A DNA stretch of 64,000 bases from Dillenia suffruticosa (lineage: Eukaryota > Streptophyta > Magnoliopsida > Dilleniales > Dilleniaceae), in assembly GCA_033439265.1 (NCBI GenBank), contig JAVTVX010000010.1, positions 1,240,001 through 1,304,000 of the forward strand, written 5' to 3'. Position numbers and translations under genes: made by a program. The notes under the pieces were generated by a model, which was given only the letters and a program-made list of their open reading frames with translations, was not told the origin of the DNA and ran no database searches. Numbering within the stretch: position 1 is the first letter of the stretch; the number at the start of each line of letters is the position of its first letter. Positions 5,470-64,000 of this stretch are shown piece after piece.

Positions 5470-5609
5470 CAACATTTTGTCCTCCTGATACGCAAGGGAC
5501 ATTCATCGCGCCCCGCACAACGTTAAAATTACCTTAGCAGAGCATCTTCCTCTGAACAAAGTCCGAACAAAGTCCTTTTGGATCCAACAAATCAACCTCC
5601 ACTAACCAT

Positions 5610-42191: not shown

Positions 42192-43507
42192 TCAAATAGA
42201 AATGCTATAGGGTACACCCTTTCCGGTCACACCAGGTTCCGAGAGAGGCTTCAAAAGCTATTAAGGAACAGTTCCAGCCCCATGCCTGTTCCTCAACTCG
42301 GTGTTAGCATTCCTATCATCAATAATCCCTTCCAACTCCTTCAACCTCCCAGTAAACCGCTCGTAATCAGCTTCAATAATTGGGTCGGATGCCCACGATG
42401 GCTCGATCTTCTCCCCTAAATATTCCTCGTCAGGAGAGTGACTAGAGAGCACATTCAAAACAGCCATAACTTTAGTTGCTTGTATTTGAGATGGGTATGT
42501 CATCAGCAAAAACACTTCAGGCTTCTCCAAAAACATTTTCCATCGAGTCTCGGTTGGGCCTCATCGGGCATGTTAACCCGGGCTATAGTGGGCCTGTTCG
42601 GGAAGTAACCCGCATAGTGGTATTGACCAAAGCTGACAAGCTGCATGGTGGCCCCATGGGACCCAAATAATGGCGGTGAGGATCCCAATTAGGTCATCTG
42701 GTGTCTCGAGCTTAGGCCACCACCGTTCATCCTTTTTGTCTGCGTGGCCCTTGGTACGGATCTCCGTCCACCAAGATGGGAGCTCGTGGTCTGATTGAAT
42801 TTGGGCCCGATCCGGGTAGTAGTGGTTGACGTAGTCACTGACCTTGAGACTGTCCCATAATAGTAGACCATCATTAGCAAATGGGTAGTCTTCAATTGCT
42901 AGCTTCAACCCATGTGGTGCTGTTGGATCTTCCACTGCTAACCCTCTATCAGTCATGACCAAATAAAAAATGTTCCTCGTAAGACCATTAAAAAAATTTC
43001 AAAGAAAATACTAGCAATATAATTTGGAAAAAAAAAAAAAAGAAATCAAATGATATAAGTACCTGCTAATAAGGTCTGCTGGTAAAGCCTCTTGATCGAA
43101 CCGCCATGCTTTGTAGGCGACAGAGCTAAGCTCTATAGAATATTTGCCAGATGAGAAAGAGGACTCAATAATACCACCTGCATTGATGAGTGCTATTCTT
43201 GCAAGAGCGCTGATCTCCATTGTGTATCTGAAATGGGGATGCAGCAACCTGTAAATTGGATGCATTGCACTTAATTGCCTATTTGTTGCTATCATGTAGG
43301 GTTCCGTGCAGCAATGAGTTCTTAGCCTGCAAAAGAAAAACCGAACTTATGATTAAAATGCTATATACATTTGCAATGACTAACTCAAAAAATGAGTAAG
43401 GTTTACATACCAATGACTAACAAGTTGGTGAATGCCAGAGTCATGAGCAAGGACATGAATTTTAGCTAGCCTCCAAAGCCAACAAGCTGTGGAACCATGG
43501 TCTGGTG
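42192..43507 (-). pseudogene. Lipoxygenase (13-LOX, chloroplast LOX2-like), 3' half: exons 7b-9
   Basis: Continuation of the gene interrupted at 43507. Exon 7b: 43411 to the insertion, with [12 protein letters not shown] holding two of the iron-ligand His. Exon 8: 43063-43326 ([17 protein letters not shown] .. ALPADLISR). Exon 9: 42945-42192 (AVEDPTAPHGLK .. SSHSPDEEYLGEKIEP .. GVPYSISI, with the terminal Ile ligand). Lesions: a one-base insertion next to the GHHAA iron site, where the Asn ligand codon reads AGC (Ser); a missing Gln-Trp pair after WDSLK; a frameshift after NMPDE; and tandem TAA TAG at about 42266-42271 where Tyr-Glu is expected. Canonical plant LOX oxygenates C18 polyunsaturated fatty acids for jasmonate and volatile synthesis. 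This copy cannot. Confidence 0.93.
43503..43507. other. Target site duplication TGGTG, left copy
   Basis: TGGTG directly before the 5' LTR. An identical TGGTG at 53493-53497 follows the 3' LTR. A 5-bp duplication is standard for Ty3/gypsy integration. Confidence 0.95.
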
Positions 43508-43584
43508 TGTAATACCCAACAAATAAAAAAAAAAAAAAGGGGAAAATTAAAATTAGGGCTTAAAGCCCTAATTCTTCTTCATTT

Positions 43585-43632
<48 letters not shown>

Positions 43633-46531
43633 TCTCTCTCTCTCTCCCTCTCTCTCTCTCCCTCTCTCTCTCTCACTCCGTCTCTTCCTCTCCCGCTGCC
43701 GCCGCCAGCACCGCCGCTCGCCACCATCGCCACCGCACCCAGCCGCCGCCGTTCCTCCCTACTCACGCGAGCGCGCTAGCCGCAGCACCTTCCTCCTCCG
43801 TGCAGCACGATCTCCCGCTGCCATCCTCCGCCAAGCGCGATCGCTGCACCACCGTGAGTGCACCAGTGCACGCGACAACGGCAGCGCGCGCGACAGCACG
43901 CGCGAGCCCAACGCGCGAGCCCAGAGCGAGCCCAGCGCGAGCCCCGCGCGAGCCCCCCGCGAGCCCCGCGCGAGCCCAGCGCGAGCCCCGCGCGAGCCCA
44001 GCGCGAGCCCCGCGCGAGCCCAGCGCGAGCCACCGCGCGAGCCCAGCGCGAGCCCAGCGCGAGCCAGCGCTTGAGCCCAGCGCGAGCCCAGTGTTAGGCC
44101 AGCGCGCGAGCCCAGCGCGAGCCAGCGCGCGAGCCCAGCCCGAGCCAGCGCACGAGCCCAGCGCGAGCAGTGCGCGACCCTCTGCACGAGCCCCTGCGCA
44201 CCTCTGCACGCTTCTGCACTAGCGCCAGCGCGCCCTTGCACGCCTCTGCACGAGCCCCTGCGTGCCCCAGCATGCCCCAGCACGGGCTCCCCTATGCTAG
44301 CGCGCCCTCCAGCACGCCCCAACATGAGCACAGCGCGCTCCAGCGCGCGATCCACTGCTCGAGCGCGCCCCAGCACGAGCGCGAGCGCTCCAGCGCGCGA
44401 CCCACTGCGCGAGCACTTGATCCAGCTCGCGAGCACGAGCCCTAGCCACTGCGGCCTAGTCCGGCACGCGGCCCAGTCCGGCCCGCGGCCCACCAGACCC
44501 ATTAGGCCCGCAGGCCCACCAGGCCGCCAGCCCATCAGCCCGTGAGCCCTCGAGCCCGCAGCCCACGAGCCCGTGACGGCCCGTGACAGTCCGTGAGCCT
44601 CTGCGAAGGTTTTAGACCAAACCGACGGGCGAACGACAGCTAGGTCTGAAACCCGAGAAACCCTAGGTGAGAAAAATATAACCTTTTCAACATTTAAATT
44701 AATTCTATCGAAATTAGGTCGAATTTAGATCGAGAATTATATAATATATTGAAATGTGTGAAATTCAAGGAAAATTAGACAAAAAAATGAGAAATATTAG
44801 AAACTTGACCATTGGTGAGTCAGATGATTCGAATTTGAGGAAACGAGAATCTATAACGAAATTTTGTAAATCAGGTGGTATAAATTTGGAAGGGAAAAAT
44901 TGAAAATCCTTGATTTGGCTTTTATTTGATATTAAATGTTGATAATCTGATTTAGGTTGATCTTTTGGAGAATCGAGCGGTCAGGTCCGATTTGGTTTGT
45001 CAGTAGGGAGTGACTTCTCTCTCGTAAACAGTGAGTGAGACTCTAATCTCTTGCATAAAATAATAAAACTTGTTTTCTGCCGTATTTTCGATAAAACATA
45101 CTTTTGATATGCATTGATCTGACGTATGATATTGAATTTCAAATCCGTTTTGTGATTATTGGAGTGTCTTGATTTATAATTACAATGACTATGCATCCAT
45201 GGTTTGAAATGAAATAATAATTGTGCCATTACTTGAAAATGTATAAATTTCATTTTATACCGTTGCATTGATATGCTGTTTTGAAATGAATCGATGAAAC
45301 ATATTGACACGCAGATTTGAAATGTTTTGATGAACTATGTGGGTTGGATGCCCACTAGTTATGAGATGATGTGATGTTACTTGTGGGACGTTGTGCCCTG
45401 GGACGTTGTGCCCTTGTGATACTATGGGACGTTGTGCCCTTGTGATACTATGATGATTCCGTAGCTACGAAGGGCGTTTGTAGAGGCACGGGTTGCCCGG
45501 ATACGCTTCTGCAGGAGGTATCCGCAAACGTCATTTATTTTAAAGGCTATAGGCGCGGCCGGTTGAACCCACGTAGGGGGAGGACGTGTGTGACGCCACC
45601 GTCTAGCACCGGACGGGGTCCTATACACGTTGATGAGTTGGCCCTAGCGAACTCATGGCCAACGTCGGGGTAGAGAGCGTTTTAAAGTCTATGCATTATA
45701 AAACCCCTGATGCGCCTGTCCTCGGTCACTGTTGACCTTTGCCAGGACCATTTTTGGCTCGCTCTGATGTTACTTGATTTTAAATGGATGCATATATGCT
45801 TGCTATCGTGTGTTTGATTAAATGATTTCAAATTGATAAATATATCATGTTTTGCTGCGAAATGTAAATTTTTGTTTCAAATAATATTATTTGACACTCA
45901 AATTGTTCACCTATACTATTTATGCTTGATATTATCCCCCTCACTCACTGAGTATCTTCCCATGATACTCACCTCTCTCTTTTCTCTCCTCAGACAGGTT
46001 GATTGTGATAGAGCGGCGTTATAGGCTCTAGAGCAGATTTGGTGTTCTGACGGTGAGATTTACTTCTAATTTAGTTTCGACCCTGCGAGATCTTGACATT
46101 GAGGTCCGTAGTTGACCATGTACTTATTTTGGGATGACTGTATAGTTTAACTCTCATATTTCATTTGCATTGAGGCGATTGTACGTATTTGAATGTTACT
46201 TGAGAAATGTGTTATACATTGTATAAATTTAGGTTCGCTCGGTGTGGTGGCTGTTCATGCTCAAATTGGGCATGACAGTAGAGGTCTGTGGCTAGAACTG
46301 ATAGAAACTTATAGCCTTGCATTGTTCTGGATGCTGGCGGTGGTGCGTGTTGATTTTGGAGAGGCCGGGATGGCCATTTATTTAAATTACAGGTTGATTT
46401 TGATTATACAGTTTAATTGTACACGGGAAATCTCCGATTTATGGGGAGGTTCTGTTCGATTTTCTGTAAAAATACAGTTGGCATCCAAGGGCAACGGGCG
46501 GCTGTTCACGATCCCGGTTTGGGGCGTAACA
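43508..46531 (+). mobile_element. 5' LTR of chromovirus 1
   Basis: 3024 bp, TGTAATACCC ... GGCGTAACA. Structures in order: hairpin ATTAGGGCT/AGCCCTAAT (43552-43572), (CT)n tract (43589-43673), a GC-rich 400-bp array of AGCGCGAGCCC-like units (about 43900-44160), a diluted GC-rich zone to about 44600, then AT-richer sequence. gggacgttgtgccct occurs three times (about 45387-45440). Differs from the 3' LTR mainly by transitions (a few percent in stretches I compared) and by array length. Confidence 0.93.
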
Positions 46532-46538
46532 GTTATAT

Positions 46539-46550
46539 TGGTATCAGAGC
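46539..46550 (+). other. Primer binding site (initiator tRNA-Met)
   Basis: TGGTATCAGAGC seven bases after the 5' LTR, a perfect 12-base complement of the initiator tRNA-Met 3' end. Confidence 0.9.
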
Positions 46551-46849
46551 CTCTAGGTTGAGCGCTATATAGGAAGAAAATCTTGAAAATATTCCCGAGT
46601 GTGTTTGCGTTTAAAGTTCTCAATGCATGAGAGTTTCATACAGTCATTTATATCCCTGCATATAGTCTTTGGAATTGAGTTTATCTATTTTAGGGGGTTA
46701 GATACTAATTCTTATCTAACCTAGCATTTCTTCATTTTCAAAGAAGGAACCATTGGAGATGGTTCTTAAATTGATAATTTCATTTATTTTAGGGGGTTAG
46801 TTGAAACTAACCCTAATCCTTGAACAATGCCTAATTAGAATTCTTATAT

Positions 46850-47720
46850 TGCGGAACCATGACGATTACATGGAGCGCTAGATATGTACTCCCTGATTCA
46901 CTTAAAGAGAGCGAGGATACTTCCTCATTTCTGGCGCCCCTTTCGGTGCCGAAGAATACATCCTCAAGGTATGTGTTTTCTCTGGCACCTTTTCAGTCGG
47001 CTATTATACCAACGTCTCCACCATTTACTCTTGATATTTTCGGGTAAGAGTACGAGTGGTACACGGCACATGGGGTCTAGATGTCACCCCATCACCTTTG
47101 ATAGCAATGACGATATCTACGGCTGCGCTTATTTCTCCTACAGTAGTTCTTACTCAAGCGGCACCAAATCGTCCATCGATGGCCGTTCTTCTTACAGTTT
47201 CGAATCTGAGTGATAATAATTGCGCCATACTTAGGTGCATCCCCGAGATGACCCAGCTAGTCATGGTAGCTCGACAGTTGGGATGCACAGATTTTTGGAC
47301 TTGGTGATGCTACGGTAGCAAAGCACTGAGTCAACTGAATCTGACGGATCTTGATAGATCTAGGCTTGCGCGAGGAGTATAGTCTACGAGTAACTAAGAG
47401 ACTATTTGATAGGGAAGCCCTCATGGGAGGCTATTTGCGATGAGGCTATAAACCATTGCGGCAAAGCGATTTCCTAATGGAATTCGACCGCAGATATTTC
47501 ACGGGGTTTTAGCGGGACCATATCCCTGGTGGTTATATCACCAGTCCTAGTGCCATGAGCTAGGCTACTGCTCAGTGACCTTTTCTTTGCCGCATATGTG
47601 ACAAGCACCACGCTCGAATAAATATGTAGAGCACTTATTACATGCTTCCACTATGAGAAGCCGGGATATATCATGAGTTTATGCCCTGATTTGTGACTTG
47701 GAGGTTAGTTGGCTTCGAGT
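46850..47720 (+). pseudogene. Chromovirus 1 gag relic
   Basis: No continuous frame is left. Recognisable parts are a degenerate CX2C-type stretch near 47582-47610 (LCRICDKHHARI) and a decayed zinc knuckle at about 47644-47688, where the expected Cys and His are Tyr (CFHYEKPGYIMSLCP). Frequent stops and frameshifts. The element cannot form particles by itself. Confidence 0.6.
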
Positions 47721-48106
47721 CATCGGAATACACCACATGTAGGACAGCAGGGAATACTTGCGCATTCTAGTAACACTGTTCCACGGACTGTAGCCGGGAG
47801 CAATATAGTATTAGGTTTTCATGAGAGTAGTTGAGGGTGCGGGCCCTTGTGTATGCGATGACTCAGGAGGATGCTCTGGCGAACCTAGATATGATCATGG
47901 GTAATCCTCCTGCGGATCCTTCCGTTTAGAGGTCCTTATGCACTGTTTCTTTTGAAATCGTGTATTTTGTAATGATATGTACAGACATGATTGTTACAGT
48001 ACTAAAGGCTTAACTATTTTGATATACAGGTGTATATCCCTATTCTTTCCGTACTCTTAGTAAATTTTTTTTTATTTTATTTTATTTTATTTTATTTTAT
48101 TTTTTT

Positions 48107-50594
48107 TTGAATCTTGGTGTTATGGAAATACATGGAGTCGACGTTTGTGTTCTTATTGGCACAAGGTCGAACTATTTCTATGTGAGAGTTTCTTTCGCTC
48201 AACAGTCGGATGGGCTTTTATCGTTACTTGATGAGGAGCTATTAGTTGTCGCTCCTCTTGGTGAGCAGTTGGTTAGAGAATTCGTATATAGAGAGTATGA
48301 TGTCATGGCAGGTGGGACAGTGCTGAGAGCAAATCTGATCCCACTGGATATGACAGATTTTGATGCCATCTTAGAGATAGATTAATTGTATACTTATAGA
48401 GTTTCCTTAGACCGTTTTATCAAGAAAGACGATTTATGGAGGCCTGAAGGGCCACCACTGACGTTTGCGAGTGAGAGACGGGTGTTACCCCATGGTATTG
48501 TATTAGTGAGGAAAAACAGACGTAAAATACGTCGGAGATGTATGACAGATCTGACACATATGATCGATACCACCATACAGAATCCGAGACTTGATGAGAT
48601 TCTGGTGGTACAGAAGTTTCCTAAAGTATTTCCCGAGGAGCCACCCAAATTATCATTGATTCGGAAGTTAAATTTTGAGATTGATCTGGCTCTAGGGATT
48701 ACACTTATTTTTATTCCGTCATATAGAATGGTACCATTTGAGCTGAGAGAGCTCAAGATTTAACTACAGAAATTGTTTGATAAATAATTCATCCATCCAA
48801 GCACCACACCTTAGGGTGCTTCGGTATTATTTGTAAAGAAGAAATATAGAACACTTAAACTTGTTATGGATTATTGGCAGTTGACTAAGGTTACTACCAA
48901 GGATTGATATTCATTTTCCCACATCGATGATTTGTTTGATCAGCTTCTCGGTGATAAGGTCTTTTCGAAGATAAATCTTCGATCGCGTTATACTCGGTTA
49001 CGGGTTAGGGTCGAGGATCTGTCCAAAAATCGCATTCCGTATCAGCATGGACACTTTGAGTCCTTGGTCATGCCATTTGGGCTGACCAATGTCTTAGCTG
49101 CATTTATGGACCGAATAGATCGGGTCTTTTATGAATTTCCTAGATCGATTTGTTATCGTTTCCACTGATGACATCCTAGTCAGCTTGCAGAGTGTTGAGG
49201 AGCATGCTCAGTGTCTTCCTCTCAGACGACAGAGAGAGTGCTTACCCCTCTTTATTGGTGGGACTCCGTACCTTAGGAGTCAGTGTGGTTAATGATGTGT
49301 AAGAAGCATCATTAGCCAGGGCAGACCTTGTTCAACCATGTCAGAGACTTCGGATTCCGAGAGAACGGATAGATAGTGTTTGGAGAACGGATTTGTATTT
49401 CAGTTGACATTAATTTCCACAAGGTCATACTTAAGGAGGCACACTCCTCAACGTAAGCATTCATCCGGGTAGTACCAAGATGTATTGGACTATTCGGGAT
49501 AATTATTGGTGGCCTAACATGAAACAAGAAATTGAGGATTTTGTGGCAAGATGTCTAGCTCGCCAACAGGTAAAAGGCCGAGCACTAGCGTTTAGCTGGT
49601 ACTTCACAGCCTTTTTTCCCCATTCTTGAGTGGGAGTGGGAGTATGTCATGATAGACTTCGTAGTAGAGTTGCATCGAACTTTGGCACAGTATGATGCCA
49701 TTTGGGTGATAGCTAATTAATTTACTCGGTTCGTACATTTTCTCCTTAATCACAGCAGAAGCGTGTTGAGCCCAGAATGCAAGAGACTTTAGGCACGCGG
49801 CCTAGTTTTAGTACAGCATATCACCCACAGACAGATGATCAGTCGGAGAGGACCATTTAGACACTCGAGGATTTACTTCGGGTTCGTGTTATGGATTTTC
49901 GGGGTAGTTGGTACAGGCATTTATAGCTGATGGAGTTTGCGTATAATAATAGTTATCAGGCCAGCATCGGCATGCCACCTTATGAGGCACTCTACGGTAG
50001 GAAGTATCGTACCCCGTTGTGCTGGGATGAGGTAGGTGAGAGACGCCTTACCACTGTTGAGCTAGTCGAGGAGACTAAAGAAAAGGTCAGAGTGATCCAC
50101 GAGCGGATGAAAGCAGCCCAAGACAGATAGAGGGCATATGCGGATCGAAGACGCCGACCTTTAGAGTTTGAGGTGGGCGATATGATGTTCTTGAGGATTT
50201 CTCCCTTGAGGGGACTAGTACGACATCGGCAGCGGGGCAAGTTGAGCCCCAGGTACATTGGCTCGTTCCGTATCCTCAGTAGGGTTGGGAGCGTGGCATA
50301 CAGGCTAGAGCTGCCAGATGAACTATCTCGGATCCATAATGTCTTCCATGTATCAGTGTTGAGGAAGTACATCTCAGATCCTTCACACATTTTGGAGCCT
50401 CCGCGATAGAAATGCGAGAGGACTTGAGCTTACCTGTCCAGCCCGTGATTATTTTGGATCGACAGGTCAGAAAGCTACGGAGCAAAGAGATTCCTCTTGT
50501 TAGAGTTTTGTGGAGGAGCAACCAGGTCGAGGAACAGACCTGGGAGCCTGAGGAAGCCATGAGAAGACAACACCCCCAACTTTTCTCTGTATAG
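48107..50594 (+). pseudogene. Chromovirus 1 pol relic: protease, RT, integrase, chromodomain
   Basis: Order seen: retropepsin-like stretch 48107-48385 (active-site DTG degenerate); RT from about 48640 (EIDLALG, YRMVPFELRELK) through VFSKINLRSRYTRLR and VMPFGLTN, with the YxDD box reading STDD near 49165. RNase H is essentially missing (deletion about 49200-49420). A zinc-binding segment (YWWPNMKQEIEDFVARC in shifted frames, 49500-49555) and integrase remnants follow, with MEFAYNNSYQASIGMPPYEALYGRKYRTPL at 49930-50020 and GSVAYRLELP. The chromodomain is 50412-50594 (QVRKLRSKEIPLVRVLW, EEQTWEPEEAM). It is the Tekay-type chromovirus order. Stops are mostly CAG to TAG. Confidence 0.85.
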
Positions 50595-50622
50595 TTTCTT
50601 TTAGTCTCGATGACGAGACTTG

Positions 50623-50641
50623 TTTTTAAGGGGTTAGAAAA
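50623..50641 (+). other. Polypurine tract of chromovirus 1
   Basis: Purine-rich ttaaggggttagaaaa stretch directly before the 3' LTR start at 50642, the expected position for plus-strand priming. Confidence 0.6.
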
Positions 50642-50713
50642 TGTAATACCCAACAAAAAAAAAGGGAAAATTAAAATTAGGGCTGAAAGCCCTAATTCTT
50701 CTTCATTTTCCCC

Positions 50714-50757
<44 letters not shown>

Positions 50758-53492
50758 TCTCTCTTTCCTTCTCTCTCTCTCACTCCGTCTCTTCCTCTCC
50801 CGCTGCCGCCGCCAGCACCGCCGCTCGCCACCATTGCCACCGCACCCAGCCGCCGCCGCTCCTCCCTCCTCACGCGAGCGCACTAGCCGCAGTGCCTTCC
50901 TCCTCCGCGCAGCACGATCTCCCGCTGCCATCCTCCGCCAAGCGCGATCGCTGCACCACCGTGAGTGCACCACCGCACGCGATAGCGGCAGCGAGAGCGA
51001 CAGCACACGCGAGCCCAGAGCGCGAGCCCAGCGCGAGCCAGCGCGTGAGCCCTGCGCGAGCCCAGCGCCAGCCCAGCGTTAGGCCAGCGCGCGAGCCCAG
51101 CGTGAGCCCAGCGCGAGCCCAGCGCGAGCCAGCGCGCGAGCCCAGCACGAGCCAGCGTGCGAGCCGAGCACGAGCTAGCGCACGAGCCCCTGCGCGCCTC
51201 TGCACGCTCCTGCACGAGCGCCAGCGCGCCCTTGCACGCCTCTGCACGAGCCCCTGCGCGCCCCAGCGTGCCGCAGCATGGGCTCCCCTATGCCAGCGCG
51301 CCCTCCAGCACGCCCCAACACGAGCACAGCGCGCTCCAACGCGCGATCCACTGCTCGAGCGCGCCCCAGCACGAGCGCGAGCGCTCCATCGCGCGACCCA
51401 CTGCGCGAGCACTCGATCCAGCTCACGAGCGCGAGCCCTAGTCACTGCGGCCCAGTCCAGCACGCGGGCCAGTCCGGCCCACAGCCTACCAGACCCATCA
51501 GACCCGTAGGCCCACCAGGCCGCCAGCCCATCAGCCCGCGAGCTCGCGGCCCACGAGCCCGCGACGGCCCGTGACAGTCCGTGAGCCTCTGCGAAGGTTT
51601 TAAACCAAACCGACTGGCGAACGACAGCTAGGTCTGAAACCCGAGAAACCCTAGGTGAGAGAAATGCAACCTTTTCAACATTTGAATTAATTCTATCGAA
51701 ATTAGGTCGAATTTAGATCGAGAGTTACATAATATATTGAAATATGTGAAATTCGAGGAAAATTAGACAAACAAATGAGAATATTAGAAACTTGACCATT
51801 GGTGAGTCAGATGATTCGAAATTGAGGAAACGAGAATCTATAACGAAGTTTTGTAAATCAGGTGGTATAAATTTGGAAGGAAAAAATTGAAAATCCCTGA
51901 TTTGGCTTTTATTTGATATTAAATGTTGATAATCTGATTTAGGTTGATCTTTTGGAGACTTGAGCGGTGAGGTCCGATTTGGCTTGTCAGTAAGGAGTGA
52001 CTTCCCTCTCGTAAACAGTGAGTGAGACTCTAATCTCTTGCATAAAATAGTAAAACTTGTTTTCTGCCGTGTTTTCGATAAAACATGCTTTTGATATGCA
52101 TTGATCTGACGTATGATATTGAATTTCAAATCCGTTTTGTGATTATTGGAGTGTCTTGATTTATAATTACGATAACTATGCATCCATGGTTTGAAATGAA
52201 ACAATAATTGTGCCATTACTTGAAAATGTATAAATTTTATTTTATACCGTTGCATTGATATGCTGTTTTGAAATGAATCGATAAAACGTATTGGCACGCA
52301 GATTTGAATGTTTTGATGAACTATGTGGGTTGGATGCCCACTAGTTATGAGATGATATGATGTTACTTGTGGGACGTTGTGCCCTGGGACGTTGTGCCCT
52401 TGTGATACTATGATGATTCCGTAACTACGAAGGGCGTTTGTAGAGACACGGGTTGCCCGGATACGCTTCTGCAGGAGGTATCCGCAAACGTCATTTATTC
52501 TAAAGGCTATAGGCGCGGCCGGTTGAACCCACGTAGGGGGAGGACGTGTGTGACGCCACCGTCTAGCACCGGGCGGGGTCCTATACATGTTGATGAGTTG
52601 GCCCCAGCGAACTCATGGCCAACGTCGGGGTAGAGAGCGTTTTAAAGTCTATGCATAATAAAACCCCAGATGCGCCTGTCCTCGCTCATGGTTGACCTTT
52701 GCCAGGACCATTTTTGGCTCGCTCTGATGTTACTTGATTTTAAATGGATGCATACATGCTTGCTATCGTGTGTTTGATTAAATGATTTCAAATTGATAAA
52801 TATATCTTGTTTTGCTGCGAAATGTAAATTTTTGTTTCAAATGATATTATTTGACACTCAAATTGTTCACCTATACTATTTATGCTTGATATTATCCCCC
52901 TCACTCACTGAGTATCTTCCCATGATACTCACCCCTCTCTTTTCCCTCCTCAGACAGGTTGATTGTGATAGAGCGGCGTTACAGGCTCTAGAGCGGATTT
53001 GGTGTTCTGACGGTGAGATTTACTTCTAATTTAGTTTCGACCCTGCGAGGTCTTGACATTGAGGTCCGTAGTTGGCCATGTACTTATTTTGGGATGACTG
53101 TATAGTTTAACTCTCATATTTCATTTGCATTGAGGCGATTGTACGTATTTGAATGTTACTTGGGAAATGTGTTATACATTGTATAAATTTAGGTCCGCTC
53201 GGTGTGGCAGCTGTTTATGCTCAAATTGGGCATGACAGTAGAGGTCTGTGGCTAGAACTGCTAGAAACTTGTAGCCTTGCGTTGTTCTGGATGCTGGCGG
53301 TGGTGCGTGTTGATTTTGGAGAGGCCGGGATGGTCATTTATTTAAATTACAGGTTGATTTTGATTATACATGTTTAATTGTACACGGGAAACCTCCGATT
53401 TACGGGGAGATTCTGCCCGATTTTCTGTAAAAATACAGTCGGCATCCAAGGGTAACGGGCGGCTATTCACGATCCCGGTTTGAGGCGTGACA
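50642..53492 (+). mobile_element. 3' LTR of chromovirus 1
   Basis: 2851 bp, TGTAATACCC ... GGCGTGACA. Same layout as the 5' LTR: hairpin at 50676-50696, (CT)n at about 50711-50760, GC-rich array to about 51590. It has two, not three, gggacgttgtgccct units (about 52372-52402) and a shorter array, 173 bp less overall. Long open frames through the GC-rich part, on both strands, are by-products of repeats without stops. Confidence 0.93.
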
Positions 53493-53497
53493 TGGTG
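53493..53497. other. Target site duplication TGGTG, right copy
   Basis: Matches 43503-43507. Removing one copy and the element restores continuous lipoxygenase exon 7 reading (..VYTP then DHGST..). Confidence 0.95.
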
Positions 53498-54072
53498 TGT
53501 ACACTTTCCTCCACAAGGGCTTGGTTCCCGAACGTGGCCGTGTAAGTTCGATGGCCAATGGCCTCAATGTGCTTTCTGGGGAGTGTTCTCGATCCATACA
53601 GTGTTGTTCCATTGATCTCACTAACTTTGTTGACATATGGTAAGAGCGTGTCATGGTAGTCTACCACAAACAGCTTCCTTTGCTTCTTTGCCTGCATTCA
53701 TGAAAAGGCAAAAGCTAATGAATAAAGACTCAATCTTAGATATTGTTCACCTATAATCTCTCTCTATTTTCAACTTTTATATTCGAAATTATGTAATTCT
53801 TTGTCCTATTTTTTATTTCGTTTTTTATTAAATTTTTTGATTACCTTTTCGACAGTAAGCACACCTTTGAGCTGACGCTCAACTATTTCGGTGGTGATTG
53901 AAGAATCCTGGAGGCCATAAATTTCAGGGTCTAGTGAACTCTTCAGTGGCCATTCCTGCAACATTTTCAACTTATGTAGTCAAAATGATGAAATTTACAC
54001 TCTTAAACTTACTAACAAGGTAATTAGCGTATCCACATGTACCATATTCATGACAAAGAGTTCTACTATTAG

Positions 54073-54112
<40 letters not shown>
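54073..54112 (+). repeat. (GA)n microsatellite in LOX intron 5
   Basis: Uninterrupted GA run of about 40 bp between exons 5 and 6 of the lipoxygenase pseudogene. A second run (54309-54350) abuts the exon 4 donor site. Confidence 0.9.
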
Positions 54113-54118
<6 letters not shown>

Positions 54119-54300
54119 AAAATGCACAAGTTTGATACCACGACTTACCGTGACCAACTTTAGCGTGCAAGGATTTGTCCCGGCAAGTGTCTGACGAGAA
54201 AACTCTTCATCTCTATCCCATGCAAATTTGTCACCTATGGTATCACATAACTTGTTGATTAAGAGAGACGGTGTGGGTGTGCTAGATAGAGAGAGGGAGG

Positions 54301-54351
<51 letters not shown>

Positions 54352-55519
54352 CGTACGGAGGATTAATTCTGGGGACTCAAAGGCCGAGATATCCCGTTCA
54401 AGGTCTTTGAGAGCCTTAATAAGCCTAGGCAAAATATTCCTTAAGAAGCCCTTTTTGAGATTGACGCCCCCGTTAAACAGCGTGTCTATGGCGGTAAAAG
54501 AGGGAAATCCAAGGCTGGAGTCCAAAATCTCTGTTTCTAGTGACGGGATCACCGCATGCGGAACTGAGGTAGCCATCGTCGCCAAGAACGTCAAATTCTT
54601 TATTTCTGAAAATTGCTCGTTCTTGGCACGTACAGGCTGCTGCTCCTCGACTCCAATGCCGGGTCTAAAAATTCAAAATTTTTCGATCTCAAAAATACAT
54701 AATTTTGCAAAAAAAATAAAAAAATGATTAATCAGTTAAAGTAGGCGTGGATATGCAACAATGCTCAGCACTATCAGAATAATCTCCATATGCCGATTAT
54801 AATTTAATTAATATTATTCACTTTTTCTTAAAAGTTTTAATTTCGAGTTTCTATTATACAATATGAAAAACAATAATCCCCTCCTTATTAAATTGAATCA
54901 TGCTGTAATAATATATTAAAATATAAACAATTAATAATTAATTAATAAAGTCGCTCTTCACTTACTTAAACTTGGGAATTATTTCTTTTTTTTTTTTTTT
55001 TTTTTTTTTTGTAAAATCTAATCCAACATTCAACTTTCCGAAATTTTTCTTTAAATAAAAATTCATTTGAAGTGAGATTATTCATAGCTCCATTGACTTG
55101 GCTGAAATTAACCATATGAATGCAAAAACTTAGATGGGGTGTTGTTTTTTCTTTTTGCAAGAGACATATGGTTGAAGTCTCTGTTATTTACATTTACTCT
55201 AAAACGATGAAATTTTCAAGTGAGAAAAGAAATTACCTGTCTTGCAAGGAGGGCGACCAGTTCTGCAACGCCTTGGATAAGGAAACTCTTTCGTGCCACC
55301 AAGGACGGGCCGCTCCAACTCGGCGCTGCTATCCGGGTCACCAAGATCATTATATGCATCATAGTCATATATTCTGTCCGCTTTTTTTCTCTCTCCTTCA
55401 ACATTTCCTCTTAGACTTTCAAGCTCTTTCTCTCTGTACTTTTTCAATCCACTTGGCGTTTGTGATGGCAAGTATGACTGATTTGAACATCACAACACAA
55501 ATAAAATTGCTGCTATAAA

Positions 55520-57660
55520 TATTAAGGATGAATGCTCAAAACTATTGATGAAATGTAAGTTAATGTTTTGCTTGTTATTTATAGTTTTTATGTATAAAAT
55601 AAAAATGAGTATAAAACTGAAACAAAAAAATTATTTTTCAAGGACTCTTCTCCATTTCTTGCAAGTTTTAAAGCAAAGTTTGGTGCATCATCCAAACTTA
55701 ATTATCGATATCAGCCTTGTTCAATAAATCTTAATTTTTTTTCGATTATCACAACTTATTTCTACTTTATTTTTATTTTATTTATAATATTTTTAATTAA
55801 TATAATATTTTAAGAAAATAAAATTTTATAAATAGAGCTCAATTATTTAAAAAAAATACTATGTCAATAAGGTTGTGGGGATTTTGCCAACCCCACCACA
55901 AAAAAAAATAATAAATAAAAGAAAAGAAAATCATGTTCATCTTTATTAAACTTGCTCAAGGGATATTTGATGACAAGTGATATCTTGAAAATTTAATAAT
56001 CAACAATTCCGAGTCAAATTTGTAATTTATTAAAACTGTTTTGTAATTTGTAATTTGTAATTTAATAAGCAAGTTTCAACCCTCATTTTAAAGACTTAAA
56101 TAATTTTAATTTACTTGGTCTATTTGGCTCTTAGATAGACCTACTTGCAAATTTTGAATTTAGATCGAGTTGAAAGTAGTTTAATGACAATTTAAATTCT
56201 TTTTATGTAAAATTTAACTTCTATTTGTAAAATATAAATTTTTATTTTCCTAAAAACTATTATAAAATAAAATAAAACATATCAAATTATATCCGATAAA
56301 AAGTGAATAGAAATTTTATCTTTTTAATTGATCTTTTAAATAATTATTTTATCTTTTTATCTCATAACAAATTATAATTGCTGAATAGAAATTTAGCAGT
56401 TACAAATTCATAAGTATCGATATTTATGAGAATCAAATTTTGAATAAAACGATGCATATGGTTTGAATAAAAATAAAAAATAAAAAATAAAATCCCCATT
56501 AGAATCATAGCCGAATCAGCCCAGCCACACCCCAGTGATATTTCTCCTGAGATTCTTCACGAAAGAAGACTTAACACATGCATATTGAGTTGAACCCCAC
56601 ATTGACCCCGTGGTCCTAATTTTCTCTGTTTTATCCTCTCGGACCACAATGGTTTTGAAAAGATCCTTTCCTTTTTTTTTTTTTAATTCGGTTTGATTAA
56701 TGGTATTATTTTAGAAAATATTTTTAATTCACTTATTTCCTAATTAATTAAGCCTCTCCCTCTCTCTCTATCTCCACTAATTATTAAAACAAATACACTT
56801 GAAATTTTCTTATAATAATATATATTTTTAATTAAAATATATTAAACTGTATATTAAATCCGACGTTGACTATCTTAATCTTTGGAATGTCACGTAGCTA
56901 CCTTTTTACGATCAAAATTAAATTCCCTCTTAATATCATAAATTCGTTCTATAGTGTTCTAGTTGAGTTAGTCATCTATAAAGAAACCGACTAATAGTCG
57001 ATTTATTGAGATTAATTGTTAGATCCCTTAATTAATTTTAGCGTTTAAAATTTGAGAATAAAAAAAATTATAGTGAAAAAGTCATCCCCTAATAGGATCT
57101 CTCATAGATGTTCGAATTGGATTACTTAAAATTTAATTTTGGACATTGATGGTAAAAAAACAAAAGAGAAACTCATCAGTAAAGGAAAGGAAGATGTTAA
57201 TTCCTAAGTCAACAATCTCAATATGTAGGGGTCCCGACGTAACTGCAGACTTTACGGTCAATTTTCGTTCCTAATATAAGACACTCCTACATCCATAACA
57301 AATTAAGTATGACAACAAAATGGCCCAACCATATCTTATTTTTTATAAGTTGGTCTTAAAAATGATTTTTTTTAAAAGTTAAATTTGAATTATTACAATT
57401 CCAGAATGGATTTGTAAATTTACTAACTATGAACACTTAACAGCCAAAAAATCTTAGATATTGCAAAAACATAAACTTAACTATGAGATTTTTACCTTAA
57501 GATTAAATAGTTCCTTGTGTGTACCCATTTTTTCTCTATCAATCGATATTCAGAATATAATTTTGTTTAAGTATTTGTTAAATCAATTTTGAAAAAACTT
57601 TCTCAATATAAATTTTTTATTATCAAATTTTTAATCCTAAATCAGATTAAATATCTTATC
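55520..57660. other. Lipoxygenase intron 2, AT-rich
   Basis: About 2.2 kb between exons 3 and 2 of the pseudogene, unusually long for this position. AT-rich with no coding sequence and no clear transposon ends. Confidence 0.5.
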
Positions 57661-58690
57661 ATTATTGCTCACTAGAGAGAGAGCCTTGCTAGTAAAGAAG
57701 CCCTTTTCTCGGGATTTTCAAGCTTAGAATGTACCCAAGAGTTGCAAATGACAGTAACAGGACCACCAGGCATGCCATTAAGAACCATATCCTTTAGATA
57801 CATCTCCTTGTGGTGCTCATTCTCCACCAAAACTGCCCCAATATCTCCAAAATCCGCAGGTACTACAATGTCTGCTTCATACTTCACATCATCACCCTCT
57901 TGCTTTACTTTATGGGCATATCCTTTTGCCGCCCGCTTCTCCGACCCTGTGTCTATATCATCTCCAAAAAAAAAAAAAAAAGAGGAGAAATTGTAAATCT
58001 ATGAAATAAAAAGTATAAGTAGTAATTCGAGCAATTAAATCTTCTATTTTCGTGGATAGAAGAGAGAGGTACCACTAAGCGTTGCAGTGAGCCCATCAGA
58101 CTATTTCTATTAAGAAATTGAAAAATTAATAATAAATGATCTCTAAAAGGCCATTGCAGATCAAGTAACAATCGATGACAGTGGCAAACGGTGAACCAGT
58201 TTGGTTGTTTCTAAGCTTGATCACGTTCCCTCCTGGACCCGTTTGAAATACTAATATATTTTAGTTTACCTTAAATCCTCTAATACTAGAACTAATATAT
58301 TTTATAAAATTAGATACCATAGATGCAGTTCAGCATATCTATCATTTTGTTTTTTGAAATCGAATTTAATATCTAAAATAAGCCCCTTTTGTTTCACTAA
58401 CAAAGTATGCTTACGAGTGCCGAGCTCAGCACTAACAAGTTCCAAGAGGAGAGATTTGCCAAGCAAATCCGAGTTATGATTAAGGCCATGGGTTAAGCCG
58501 ATGCTGGCCCCAACCGATAATTGAACAGTTATATCGGCCTTGACTGTCACGCCTTTTTGATCTATGGTTGCAGCAGCTGTGGTTTCAAAGCTTTGGGCTT
58601 CAGTATTATTGAGAAAGATGTTTTGCTTTTTTGGGAAATTGTGCTTTCGACGAAAGCCAAGGGGAGAGGAGGAGCTTCCGCCACCATTTC

Positions 58691-61192
58691 TGTCACGCTC
58701 CGATTCTCGGATCGACCACGCGACAATGGTCGCATTGTCGAGGTACACGGGTAGAATCTTTTCATATATTGAGACTCCGCAAAGCTACAAATCTGTATAT
58801 CGATTTTTCCAATTCACAATCCATCCAAAATAAGAAAACATATAAGCAGTACACATGCAAAGGACCCATCCGGTCCATCCCTATACACACGAACATGCGT
58901 CTACACACAATAGGGCGGGGGTTCCTGTACATGCACGTATGCAAAATTGGCCATCCCAACCATTCCAGAATTTTCAACACAAATAAAGCATTTAAAATAA
59001 AAGAAATCCAAAATCATAATCAGAGGATTTTACTAACATTCACCTGAAGAAACGAGCTAGCGTCAGTAAAATCCAAACGGTATGAGATGTACAGAATTTC
59101 GTAAAATCGAAAGAAAATAACGAATTCCAATATTTCAAATCAAATATCTCATTTAAACAATAAGTATAGCCAAAAATGAAATTTAAGAGAATAAACATGT
59201 TTCGTACAAACTCCAATACAAACTGTGTAAGGATTCCTTCAATACTTGCTCCTATATATGAAATAAATATTAATTAAATCCATACCAAAAGAATTATACA
59301 TGTCTTCCCTTTCATGGATTTCAAAATCAACCAAAATGAACTTGCATCTCTATGTACCTACACAAGTCAGCGGAATAAATCTTCCCAAACTCCAATTTCT
59401 GCCGCAGACCTAAACTTCCTTTGAAAGATGTTAAAGAGAGGGTAAGTATTGGGAAATACTCAGTGAATGGAGTGCAATGATATGATTGCGTAATAAATGA
59501 GGGGTGAATATGGGAGAGTCAAAGTATATCTCAAATAACACTTTATATATACCAAAACATTTTAAATAAATCAAGATAATTCACAAATTATGGATCCACA
59601 TCAAATATTCTTTCCGAAAATCACAAGGGTCTCATCGAAACCACTTCCGTCCTGCGTTTGGCCGAACCAAGACGGAAGCCCGCCAAGGGGTTTTCCATTT
59701 CAGTATTTCAAACACTACCCCCTTCCTTAGCGTTGGCTCGTACCTCACCGGGGTGCAATCCGGATAGTCCGACATGGCAGAGAAGAGGCCGCGTATACCT
59801 CTTTCGCAATAAAATCCTACCCACGTCACCCCGTCGGGTCGCTCCGTGAAGGGAATGACTATAGCAATTACAGTCGTGCGGCATCTTTTCATAATCATTC
59901 AGATTTCAATCAATGTGCCATGTTTCATCCAACAAATTTCAAAATCATGCTACAAGCATTTACATATCAATTATCCAATACAAATGACACAAATTCATTT
60001 AAAATTACATAAGATGCATTCATGATTCAAATTTCTGTTTCAGACAACCCACAATCACAAACAATTTCATATAAAATATGTACAAAATCATTCAAAATCG
60101 TTTATAAAACAATTTTAAAATCATTTTGCTCATTTAACGGACCATCCACTCACTTTCTAGGGAGGGTATCCACTCCCTACAACCTTTCAATACTCAAGAA
60201 ATCTCCTTTCAAGCTCTAATGGATTGTCCTAAATCAACAATAACAATTCTCAAGTCATTTCTCCTCCAAATTCCAGAGTTCACAAACTTTCCTAATTTTA
60301 TTTAAATCCCAAATTTCTAACGTTTTCTTGTTCTTGTCCTCATTTACATCATATACTATTTTACACTCCAATTTCCCTTAAATTTCCATCCTCAACGAAA
60401 CAGGCAACATAAAAAAAATCACAACAAACCTTTATTTTGGCCAACATTCCAATACCAATCATAAACACTAATTTTTATCATGACCCTAGAGCTATTGTCA
60501 CAAATCAGCCCTTAATCTGATCAGTTATTGAATGCATTTAAAAATTTCCTCAACTAGGGTTTTCGCAGCTCGCAGCTCGCAGCTCGTAGCCCTAACGTCC
60601 GTGCACCATTCAATCCATTCCGGGACCTACAATGTTTCCAAATCGAAACAAGATTCAGCGATTAAGTCTAATCACTATGGAATTCAAAACCCTAGAACCA
60701 CAACCAACTCAGCCCTTACTTGCAGTAAAGAAGCTACGACCTAGGGTTTCTGCGGGGATTGCAGGTGAACCGTTTAAGGAGACAACTCATCGCGGGCTTG
60801 CGGGCCGTCGCGGGTTGGCGGGCTGGTGCGCTTGCAGGCTAGCGCGCTCACAGCTGAGGCGCGCGCTCACGAGAAGGACTGCAGTTGCGCGCTCGTACAG
60901 GGGAGGATCGCGCTGCGGTGGTTGGAGTGGCGGAGGGAGAGATAGCGGTGGCAGTGGCGATGGCAATGGTGATGGCGATGGCGATGGCGATGGTGATGGC
61001 GATGGCGATGGCGATGGCGATGGGAGAGAGAGGCAGAGAATCGGGAGAGAGAGAGGAAGAGAGTGAGAGAGATTAGGGCTGAAAGCCCTAATCTAATTGG
61101 GGGAAAAAAAAACGCAGCGTTTTGGGCAAAACGCTGTGTTTTCCTCTTTCTTTTTTTTTTCTTTCTTTTTTTTTTTTAAAGAAGGTATTACA
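58691..61192 (-). mobile_element. 3' LTR of chromovirus 2
   Basis: 2502 bp. On the minus strand it starts TGTAATACC at 61192 and ends GCGTGACA at 58691, the same terminal words as chromovirus 1 but with different internal sequence. It has the hairpin ATTAGGGCT/AGCCCTAAT at 61072-61092, a second hairpin (CAGCGTTTTG/CAAAACGCTG, 61112-61139), CT-rich DNA, a (GATGGC)n array (about 60955-61022), and a GC-rich zone (60770-60910). Its flank at 58686-58690 is ATTTC; the partner flank is outside the window. Confidence 0.88.
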
Positions 61193-61215
61193 ACATTTAA
61201 TCCCCTAAAAACAAA
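61193..61215 (-). other. Polypurine tract of chromovirus 2
   Basis: Minus-strand TTTTTAGGGGATTAAA just before the LTR start at 61192, like the TTTTTAAGGGGTTAGAAAA of chromovirus 1. Preceded by a remnant of the ttcg(a/g)ggacgaaattt motif common just after pol in Tekay-type elements. Confidence 0.6.
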
Positions 61216-61242
61216 TTTCGTCCCCGAAATTCCGAGATACAA

Positions 61243-64000
61243 TTATATATCAAAAAGTTGCGGGTGTTGCTTCTGTATTAATTCTTCAGTCTCCCAAGTC
61301 TATTCTTCAACTTGATTGTTTCTCCATAGCACCTTAACTATAGGAATCAGTTTATTCCTCAACTGTTTGGTTTGTCGATCAATGATCTTCACCGGTTGTA
61401 TCCTGAAACTCAAATTCTCATTCTATTCTATTGGAGGTACTTCCAATATGTGTGAAGGATCCGGTAAATACTTCTTCAACATGGAAACGTTAAAAACGTC
61501 ATGGATTCTCTGCAACTCCGGCGGCAATTCTAGCCGGTATGCCACGTGTCCAATCCTTTCAGGAATACTAAAGGGACCGATATAACGAGAATTTAGCTTT
61601 CCCTGTTTCTGAAAACGGATTACGCCCTTCCAAGGAGATATATTCAAAAACACCATATCTTTTTCTTCAAATTCCAAGGGTCTTCTTCTCTTGTCGGCAT
61701 AGCTCTTTTGTCGATCTTGAGCCGCCTTCATTTTTTCCCGAATCAGCTTCACTTTCTCTTTAGTGGCCTCGATTATTTCTATACTTTCAATCTTTCTCTC
61801 CCCAACTTTATCCCAACACAAGAGAATACGACACTTCCTTCCATAAAGGGCTTCATATGGAGGCATCTCTATGCTTACTTGATAACTGTTGTTGTAGGCG
61901 AATTCAACCAACGGAAGGTGCCTATCCCAACTACCTTGAAATTCCATAACACATGCCCTAAGCATGTCCTCCAATGTTTGGATGGTGCGCTCCGATTGTC
62001 TATTGGTTTGGGGATGAAAAGCAGTGCTGAATTTCAATTTAGTTCTTAAGGACTTTTGCAACTTTGGCCAGAATCTAGAAGTGAATCGAGGATCACGGTC
62101 CGATACAATAGATACCGGTACTCCGTGAAGTCTTACGATCTCATCAATGTACAACTTTGCCAATCTTTCTAAGGAATAGGTGTTCTAAATCTGCAAGAAG
62201 TGAGCCGATTTGGTGAGACGGTCTACAATCAACCATATGGCATCGTGATGGCTCGGAGTACGTGGCAATCCCACCACGAAATCCATAGTGATATGTTCCT
62301 ATTTCCATTTGGGAATTGGTAGTGGTTGAAGTGTATCTGTCGGTTTCTGATGTTCAGCCTTGATCTACTGGCATACAAGACACCTCGCCACAAATTTGGC
62401 TATCTCTCTCTTCATCCCAAACCACCAATATGATTCTTTGATGGTTCGGTACATTTTGGTACTCCCCAGATGTATAACATAGGTCGAGGAATACGCCTCT
62501 TCAAGTATAGCCTTCCGGAGATCTTCATTTTTCGGAATACATGTGCGTTTCCCATACACTACAATTCCATCATCCCGAATCCAGAATTTACCACCTTCCC
62601 CTTTTTGAATTTTCTCAACAATGCCTTTCAATTCATCATCGGTAGCCTGAAACTCCCAAATGCGATCCGCCAATGTGGGTCTTACCACAAATTTGGCTAA
62701 TAAAACACCTTGATCATCCTTAACCAACTCGATTCCAAGGGCTCGGAGTCCAACTAAACAAGAGAGGTAAGAACTCCATTAGGATGCCATAGATGAGGAT
62801 TTGCGGCTTAAAGCATTAGCAACAACATTCGTCTTCCTGGGGTGGTAATCAATCACCAAATCATAGTTCTTGATCAGCTCTAACCACATTTTTTGTCTCA
62901 AATTGAGCTCCTTCTGAGTGAGCAAGTATTTGAGACTCTTATGGTCGGTAAAGACCTTGCAAGTATCCCCATACCAATAATGCCGCCAAATCTTTAAGGC
63001 AAACACAATGGCAACTAGCTCCAAATCATGAGTAGGATAGTTCACTTCGTGCTTCTTTAGTCAGCGAGAAGCATAAGCAATCACCTTATCAGCTTGCATC
63101 AGCATGCACCTAATCCTTGCTTGCTAGCATTACTGTGCACCATATAATCACCACCGCCACTAATAGGGAGAGCAAGGATGGGAGCGGAGGTCAACCTTTG
63201 CTTCAACTCTTGAAAACTATCCTCGCACTTTTCGTCCCACTCTAACTTGATTCTCTTTCGAGTCAAACTTGTCATCGGAGCTGCTATTTTCGAGAATCCT
63301 TCTACGAATCTCCGATAATACCCTGTTAATCCGAGAAAACTTCATACCTTGGTGACATTTTTAGGCTGCTCCCACTTCAAAATGACTCCTACCTTCTTTG
63401 GATCCACAAAAATCCCGTCTCTAGAAACCATATGTCCCAAAAATCCAATCTCTCTTAGCCAAAACTCGCATTTTTGAGAATTTGGTATACAACTCCTTCT
63501 CCTTAAGAGTTTGCAAAATGATTCAGAGATGTTTGGAATGTTCTTCATCACTTTTGGAATACACCAAAATATCGTCGATGAAAACTATGATAAATTTATC
63601 AAGATAAGGATCGAACACTCGATTCATGAGATCTATGCAGGCCGTAGGAGCATTCGTCAACTCAAAGGGCATTACTAGGAATTCGTAGTATCCATACCGC
63701 ATTCTAAACGTGGTCTTATGAACATCACCACCCTTGATCTTCAACTGATGATAATCAGATCTCAAGTCGATCTTTGAAAAGACACTTGTACCTTGAAGTT
63801 GATCAAACAGATCATCAATTCTCGGAAGAGGATACTTATTCTTGATCGTTGCCTTGTTGAGTTGTCGGTAGTCAATACATAATCGGAGGGTTCCGTCCTT
63901 TTTCTTCACAACCTAGACCGGAGCTCCCCAAGGCGAAGTGTTTGGTCGGATAAACCCTTTCTCCAACAACTCTTGGAGCTGAACCTTCAGCTCTTTCAAC
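61243..64000 (-). pseudogene. Chromovirus 2 pol (RT, RNase H, integrase, chromodomain), partial
   Basis: Reads from the right edge leftwards. RT: 63909-63523 ([21 protein letters not shown] start, [16 protein letters not shown], catalytic box FIDD). RT connection: 63551-63342. RNase H: 63045-62779 ([23 protein letters not shown]). Zinc-binding domain: 62560-62365 (HLGSTKMYRTIKESYWW, CLVC). Integrase: about 62330-61600 ([38 protein letters not shown]). Chromodomain: about 61410-61243 (QLRNKLIPIVKVLWRNN). Far better preserved than chromovirus 1 but not intact: stops at Gln or Trp codons (near 62363, 62300, 62188, 61425 and 61310) and frameshifts near 63540 and 63110. Gag, protease and the other LTR lie beyond the window. 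Confidence 0.9.

Follow-up and report, generated by a model that had tools for sequence, protein, structure and literature searches.

Structure of the LOX-A locus

The 64,000-nucleotide stretch of Dillenia suffruticosa DNA analysed here (the window; contig JAVTVX010000010.1, positions 1,240,001 to 1,304,000) carries a nine-exon plant lipoxygenase gene, LOX-A, which lies on the minus strand and is the first of five copies (LOX-A to LOX-E) forming a loose row at 1.28–1.55 Mb of the contig. Exon 7 is split by one LTR retrotransposon (E1) and exon 1 by another (E2) in the opposite orientation (Table 1). Pfam matches on nine of the ten exon pieces scanned cover the PLAT and lipoxygenase domains over the full length of the gene, including the two exon 7 pieces to the left (E=3.7e-10) and right (E=1.9e-11) of E1, and the LOX-A read-through matches the solved chain 8qdq across 839 residues (1229 bits). 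By analogy with LOX2-like proteins, LOX-A is putatively of the 13-LOX type, and its exon 1 is predicted to encode a transit peptide.

LOX-A also bears smaller lesions. Exon 9 has two single-base frameshifts, a 6-base in-frame loss and two adjacent stops near the C-terminus, the upstream part of exon 7 has lost 11 bases, the downstream part of exon 1 has a 9-base in-frame gap relative to LOX-E, and the intron-2 donor is GC where LOX-B and LOX-E have GT.

Table 1. Features of LOX-A and of the two elements that interrupt it. L009 is the contig stretch past the window end, with L009:2364-4958 equal to C10:1306364-1308958.
Feature	Position	Strand	Remarks
LOX-A exon 9	42192..42945	-	Pfam Lipoxygenase in both frames; compared with LOX-B and LOX-E
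LOX-A exon 8	43063..43326	-	Frame containing the exon: Pfam Lipoxygenase, E=1.7e-47
LOX-A exon 7, downstream part	43411..43507	-	Includes TGGTG 43503-43507
E1, LTR retrotransposon of chromovirus type	43508..53492	+	9985 bp; termini and target duplication; coding-defective
E1 5' LTR	43508..46531	+	3024 bp
E1 junction without RNase H	49150..49420	+	Between RT and integrase zinc finger
E1 chromodomain frame	50340..50591	+	Pfam Chromo PF00385, E=3.4e-6
E1 3' LTR	50642..53492	+	2851 bp
LOX-A exon 7, upstream part	53493..53691	-	Includes TGGTG 53493-53497
LOX-A exon 6	53845..53955	-	Paralog comparison
LOX-A exon 5	54149..54234	-	Pfam scan and paralog comparison
LOX-A exon 4	54357..54664	-	Single-base loss; 15-base in-frame gap relative to LOX-E
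LOX-A exon 3	55237..55477	-	Pfam scan and paralog comparison
LOX-A exon 2	57685..57952	-	Pfam PLAT, E=2.4e-8; single-base loss
LOX-A exon 1, downstream part	58415..58690	-	ATTTC 58686-58690; matches 8qdr, a lipoxygenase chain, at E=2.1e-8
E2, portion within the window	58691..64000	-	3' LTR and pol; runs on to L009:4958 (C10:1308958)
E2 3' LTR	58691..61192	-	2502 bp
E2 RT, RNase H, integrase zinc finger and integrase frames	61426..63912	-	Broken at several places
E2 5' LTR	L009:2364-4958 (C10:1306364-1308958)		Beyond the window

Architecture of the two elements

E1 starts with TG, ends with CA and is flanked by perfect 5-bp TGGTG duplications; both LTRs and a PBS-like site are present, and the reading frames are broken. 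Pfam matches above cut-off comprise RVP_2, SH3_Tf2-1 (E=6.7e-26) and Chromo, the integrase zinc finger is recognized as H2C2 (E=1.7e-13), and the RVT_1 match is weak and below cut-off. The defining chromovirus order, a Ty3/gypsy integrase followed by a chromodomain, is thus found in E1 by Pfam. We found no RNase H match in E1 and no Pfam family in the one piece of its gag region that was scanned, so that the set expected of an autonomous element (gag, PR, RT, RH, IN) is incomplete at RNase H. The RNase-H-less junction is common to 39 of 39 other scored copies, with 94–95% identity across it. The initial annotation had described a complete 10-kb chromovirus in exon 7; its outline and TGGTG duplications stand, whereas the broken frames and the missing RNase H match speak against completeness. 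Inverted repeats between the E1 LTR and LOX-A were judged from their letters to be CT-rich simple repeats and set aside.

E2 breaks exon 1 after codon 28, in the putative transit-peptide region. Past the window end, the following 8 kb of contig contain what the initial annotation had proposed to seek there, namely the E2 5' LTR, the second ATTTC (L009:4959-4963) and the missing LOX N-terminus, with its ATG at L009:5042. Pfam matches above cut-off are RVT_1, RT_RNaseH, Integrase_H2C2 and SH3_Tf2-1, and rve falls below cut-off; the integrase is 66% identical to that of E1 across 214 aa. A 40-aa piece at the integrase end matches no Pfam family; by eye it resembles the corresponding piece of E1, and it is cut by an in-frame stop. 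We consider E2, earlier assigned to the chromoviruses, likely to be of that type. Judging by their long LTRs, both elements are presumably Tekay/Del-like.

The LTRs of E1 and E2 have the same termini and different sequences, as had been claimed: they start with TGTAATACC and end with GTGACA, except that the E1 5' LTR ends with GTAACA, and their interiors share short patches (67–95% identity among the ten matches listed). The strike on one lipoxygenase gene in exons 1 and 7 by two families on opposite strands is real: both integrations have 5-bp duplications (TGGTG twice for E1, ATTTC twice for E2), their orientations are opposite, their LTR families differ, and the paralogous sites are empty.

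Relative age of E1 and E2

The two E1 LTRs diverge by a K2P distance of 0.052 (109 transitions and 32 transversions over 2850 sites), the two E2 LTRs by 0.084 (153 and 42 over 2473 sites), which gives the dating of both elements that had been suggested. E2 divergence exceeds that of E1 with p=2e-5 for all changes and p=0.08 for transversions, and E2 is probably the older element, integrated first. Three assumed rates would translate these distances into 2.0–6.5 million years for E1 and 3.3–10.6 million years for E2, estimates on which we do not rely and which are inflated because the LTRs are enriched in transitions (ts/tv 3.5 versus 1.2, p=5e-6).

The K2P distance of E2 also exceeds that of the introns and upstream flank of LOX-A and its paralogs (0.067–0.076) and would place E2 before the duplication, although LOX-B and LOX-E lack it. 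We infer that this conflict stems from the LTR transition excess, which may reflect methylated cytosines; alternatively, the LOX copies may have undergone gene conversion. In transversions, E2 (0.017 per site) reaches about half of the divergence between LOX-A and its paralogs (0.029–0.036 per site).

Selection and the lipoxygenase row

Across exons 7–9, the changes private to LOX-A number 6 synonymous, 20 nonsynonymous and 1 stop (N:S 21:6, omega ~0.99) and look neutral. The corresponding counts (synonymous/nonsynonymous/stop) are 7/10/0 for LOX-B, 9/9/0 for LOX-E, 1/8/1 for LOX-C and 1/2/1 for LOX-D, and the N:S contrast of LOX-A with LOX-B and LOX-E gives p=0.066. Gene-wide pairwise dN/dS does not single out LOX-A, being 0.48–0.49 for all three pairs among LOX-A, LOX-B and LOX-E; because exon 4 of LOX-A aligned poorly to LOX-B (K2P 0.217), rates were also computed without exon 4, giving 0.38–0.43. 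The earlier statement that the gene is dead is thus supported in part, by the additional frameshifts, the stops and the private N:S ratio.

LOX-B, 89 kb from LOX-A, is uninterrupted at both insertion points, and LOX-B and LOX-E are open over 880 and 906 aa. LOX-A, LOX-C and LOX-D are dead copies, all three disrupted by element-like DNA. Searches confined to the E1 and E2 LTRs found neither at LOX-B nor within 8 kb of LOX-E, and among 12 LOX loci (12 of 22 exon-8 matches, ~3.26 kb each) these LTRs occur at LOX-A only. At LOX-C a related LTR, a possible third insertion, lies near the break, with a minisatellite between the gene end and the LTR. The LOX-D insert looks Ty1/copia-like by motif, but two pieces of it matched no Pfam family and it is called an insert only.

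Origin of the double insertion

By inspection, related LTRs occupy 8 or 9 places in the surrounding 270 kb, E1 and E2 counted. In a rough local model, the chance of at least two insertions is 0.02–0.10 for the 6.6-kb LOX-A gene and 0.003–0.02 for its 2.7 kb of exons, neither figure being a test because LOX-A was picked after the fact. With related LTRs at this density, the proposal that two exon insertions point to silent chromatin or to a hotspot was not borne out. We think it highly probable that E2 and E1 integrated independently, without aim, and were kept in a spare LOX-A freed from selection. A spare copy, putatively of 13-LOX type, would have lost its function within the duplicated row, either through E2 or before it; E2 entered exon 1, probably before E1 entered exon 7, and both would have been retained since selection no longer acted on LOX-A. 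The pattern in the row, element-like DNA in the three dead copies and no E1 or E2 LTR at the two open ones, favours this account. The low exon figure counts against unaimed integration and weakens this account, and the N:S contrast of LOX-A with LOX-B and LOX-E, the undistinguished gene-wide dN/dS and the K2P conflict over the age of E2 also speak against it. It is, on the other hand, quite unlikely that related chromovirus families prefer exons and that the row is a recurrent landing zone whose open copies have been cleaned by selection, a reading in keeping with two strikes on LOX-A and perhaps one on LOX-C.

A finer version of the preferred account, compatible with it, makes the E2 insertion the lesion that killed LOX-A, followed by the other lesions and E1. 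The break so early in exon 1 agrees with this order, as does an E2 LTR age per lineage (K2P 0.042) above the LOX-A private branch (0.029, exons 7–9). The transversion age of E2, however, is only about half of the paralog divergence while the private branch looks neutral throughout, which on small counts hints at relaxation before E2; we regard this version as possible but somewhat doubtful. LOX-A might instead have first become silent heterochromatin, to which chromodomains then drew the elements. The neutral-looking exons, the Chromo match in E1 and a transition excess that may indicate methylated DNA at present would fit, as would the reported localization of group II chromodomain fusions to plant heterochromatin, though not by binding methyl-H3K9 (PMC2832683), and of banana Reina and Tekay elements to pericentromeric heterochromatin (PMC3605345). 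Methylation of the elements after insertion accounts equally for the transition excess, however, and the window up to 42 kb has lectin-kinase, PPR and GH1 matches but none to an E1 or E2 LTR or to chromovirus pol. New LORE1 insertions, moreover, are described in PMC2832683 as having no strong preference for heterochromatin, and we consider this order of events unlikely. The premise that chromoviruses usually settle in heterochromatin finds mixed support: the banana elements agree with it, the genic and exonic insertions of LORE1 do not. A sequence hotspot in the row would explain two exonic hits and the related LTR near the LOX-C break, yet TGGTG and ATTTC have no evident motif in common, LOX-B and LOX-E, with near-identical targets, carry neither LTR, no other of the LOX loci compared carries these LTRs, and the minisatellite separates the LOX-C gene end from its LTR; such a hotspot is very improbable. 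The truncation of E2 by the window end had raised the prospect of a mis-assembly or rearrangement, which is scarcely credible given that the contig crosses all of E2 and reaches the LOX N-terminus, preceded by the expected ATTTC.

Comparison with known systems

LOX-A offers a clean and relatively datable case in which a duplicated lipoxygenase decays while burdened with retrotransposons and an intact paralogous sequence shows both empty sites. It also counsels caution: before exon insertions are read as targeting, one should ask whether selection had already ceased to act on the gene. The group of E1 copies, many of which share the RNase-H-less junction, may serve specialists more than the double insertion itself. 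Within the terms searched (chromovirus targeting, LOX pseudogenes, exon-hit arrays), we recognized no precedent for the LOX-A locus in the literature.

Insertion of a chromovirus into exons has a precedent in LORE1 of Lotus japonicus (Reina clade), for which PMC2832683 gives 43 genic and 31 exonic sites among 97 new insertions; LORE1 was surveyed in number and when new, whereas E1 and E2 are an old pair within a single dead gene. Like plant chromoviruses of the Ty3/gypsy group with an integrase chromodomain, E1 and E2 have the pol domains, 5-bp duplications and TGGTATCAGAGCC after both 5' LTRs, with Chromo in E1, and they differ in their broken frames and, for E1, in the missing RNase H. Among plant lipoxygenases the closest solved chains are 8qdq and 8qdr, which LOX-A resembles over the matched 839 residues, but as a pseudogene.

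A dead lipoxygenase gene interrupted twice

LOX-A, a nine-exon gene in an assembly of 37 contigs (596 Mb; window, C10:1240001-1304000 of contig JAVTVX010000010.1, C10), shows Pfam PLAT or Lipoxygenase matches in nine of ten pieces, exon 6 being outside the scan. For the piece from exon 1, the sole Pfam hit was to an unrelated family and fell short of the cut-off, but exon 1 matches the solved lipoxygenase chain 8qdr (E=2.1e-8); the read-through of the gene, with X at most breaks, aligns to chain 8qdq with 1229 bits over 839 residues. Exons 2 and 4 have each lost a single base, exon 7 has lost 11 bases, and exon 9 lacks 6 bases and has its frame shifted twice, each time by one base. Codon 8 is a stop, two stops lie side by side close to the end, the intron 2 donor is GC, and in-frame gaps distinguish exons 1 and 4 from those of LOX-E, another copy in the same loose row (LOX-A to LOX-E).

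Features of the lipoxygenase row and its insertions (window positions unless prefixed; L009 adjoins the window's right end, and L034, L044 and L045 are other C10 stretches)
Feature	Position	Strand	Remarks
B_lectin-kinase open frame	5556-8027		single frame, 824 aa
LOX-A	right third of window	minus	lipoxygenase gene
Element 1	43508 to 53492	plus	within LOX-A exon 7; TGGTG at either side
Element 1 LTR repeats	43935-44386 and 50974-51382		GC-rich short tandem repeats, GCGCGAGCCCA-like
Element 1 junction	49150-49420		lacks RNase H
Element 2	end at 58691	minus	ATTTC adjoining; 10,268 bp by coordinates
Element 2 5' LTR	L009:2364-4958		runs directly into ATTTC and the LOX start that the window lacks
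LOX-B exon 8	C10:1372275
LOX-C minisatellite	L044:1585-2693 (C10:1447185-1448293)		units of roughly 100 bp
LOX-D intron 6 insert	L034:2515 onward and L045		PBS-like site
LOX-E exon 8	C10:1550044

The initial annotation predicted that sequence to the right of Element 2, the likely chromovirus in exon 1, would continue into the LOX N-terminus flanked by ATTTC, and the adjoining stretch bears this out. Element 2 matches gag, zinc knuckle, protease, RT, RNase H and integrase families, the integrase core (rve) only under the cut-off. Its coding region carries breaks, and a Pfam search of its chromodomain region returned zero matches.

Element 1, of chromovirus type, has LTRs of 3024 and 2851 bp, a TGGTATCAGAGCC site after the first, and broken reading frames. 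RVP_2, SH3_Tf2-1 and Chromo exceed the Pfam cut-offs, RVT_1 is a weak match under its cut-off, and RNase H was sought in the element and not found. Judged by eye from its letters, the chromodomain resembles the type without a full aromatic cage, at what we take to be the cage positions. Among 40 places scored out of 701 candidates, all 39 other copies share the RNase-H-less junction (94-95% identity; 265-271 of 271 bases aligned), indicating that the loss was copied; Element 1 is thus one of a sizeable defective subfamily, whose copies presumably moved in trans. Both its LTRs contain tandem repeats, and the long open frames arising from these are probably meaningless.

Order and age of the insertions

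LOX-B is uninterrupted at both insertion points, with the duplicated bases in single copy at each. The K2P distance between LTRs is 0.084 for Element 2 and 0.052 for Element 1, the alignment of the latter extending two bases too far. Counting all changes, the two pairs differ clearly (p=2e-5); on transversions alone, a difference is suggested (p=0.08). Divergence over introns and 600 bp upstream (1632 columns retained after removal of poorly aligned ones) is 0.067 between LOX-A and LOX-E and 0.076 between LOX-A and LOX-B. The LTR distance of Element 2 exceeds these values, yet LOX-B and LOX-E lack the element. Since the LTR pairs show a strong transition excess (ts/tv 3.5, versus 1.2 in LOX introns), LTR dating is inflated and ages were compared by transversions. 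These amount to 0.029-0.036 per site between paralogs, 0.017 for Element 2 and 0.011 for Element 1, which would place the insertions at about half and about a third of paralog divergence, respectively.

Fate of the lipoxygenase copies

Genome-wide, 22 LOX exon-8 matches were found, fragments counted, five of them at 1283-1551 kb of C10. LOX-B and LOX-E have open frames (880 and 906 aa) and GT-AG at 8/8 introns; LOX-B shows in-frame losses relative to LOX-E in exons 1, 3 and 4. LOX-C and LOX-D each carry one stop in exons 7-9. LOX-C ends abruptly in intron 2, its exon 2 was sought and not found, and a minisatellite follows, beyond which a chromovirus-related LTR starts. LOX-D holds a foreign stretch in intron 6, copia-like as judged by eye, two pieces of which matched no Pfam family; its assigned exon 2 to exon 8 spans 11.5 kb, versus 4.2-4.5 kb in LOX-B and LOX-E. 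Element-like DNA thus disrupts all three dead copies, and both open copies are free of Element 1 and Element 2 LTRs, the kind of element searched for there; across five genes this split is a pattern and does not amount to a test.

Compared with six relatives, exons 7-9 of LOX-A have 20 nonsynonymous and 6 synonymous private changes and one stop. Omega of private changes is 0.99 for LOX-A, 0.40 for LOX-B and 0.28 for LOX-E (LOX-A versus B+E, p=0.066), and the all-exon pairwise comparison showed no contrast for LOX-A. In the exons 7-9 tree, its attachment is unresolved (49% support).

Proposed explanations: survival in a spare copy, silent chromatin or a hotspot

Integration without targeting, followed by survival in a spare LOX copy, explains the observations. 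Its least comfortable part is the double exon insertion: the probability of at least two insertions is 0.02-0.10 for the 6588 bases of LOX-A and 0.003-0.02 for its 2678 exon bases, under a crude model (8-12 insertions over 144-240 kb of usable DNA) in which selection against insertions elsewhere enters only via the smaller area, and for a gene picked for being striking. As to a region that attracts such elements, C10:1140001-1410000 has 8 or 9 places with an LTR of either family or of a relative, Elements 1 and 2 counted, and four further places with pol-like matches but no such LTR. Neither related LTRs nor pol-like matches were found in the window's first 42 kb, where lectin-kinase, PPR and GH1 matches lie.

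Attraction to a dead gene already in silent chromatin would agree with the pericentromeric heterochromatin reported for banana Tekay and Reina copies (PMC3605345). Seed-plant chromodomains are described as lacking the full aromatic cage (PMC6317226); group II chromodomain fusions nonetheless reach heterochromatin (PMC2832683). Untargeted integration and survival has its own parallels: in beet, Tekay and Reina copies are reported within or close to genes (PMC3605345), and of 97 LORE1 insertions reported, 43 were genic and 31 exonic, so a chromovirus is free to land in exons (PMC2832683).
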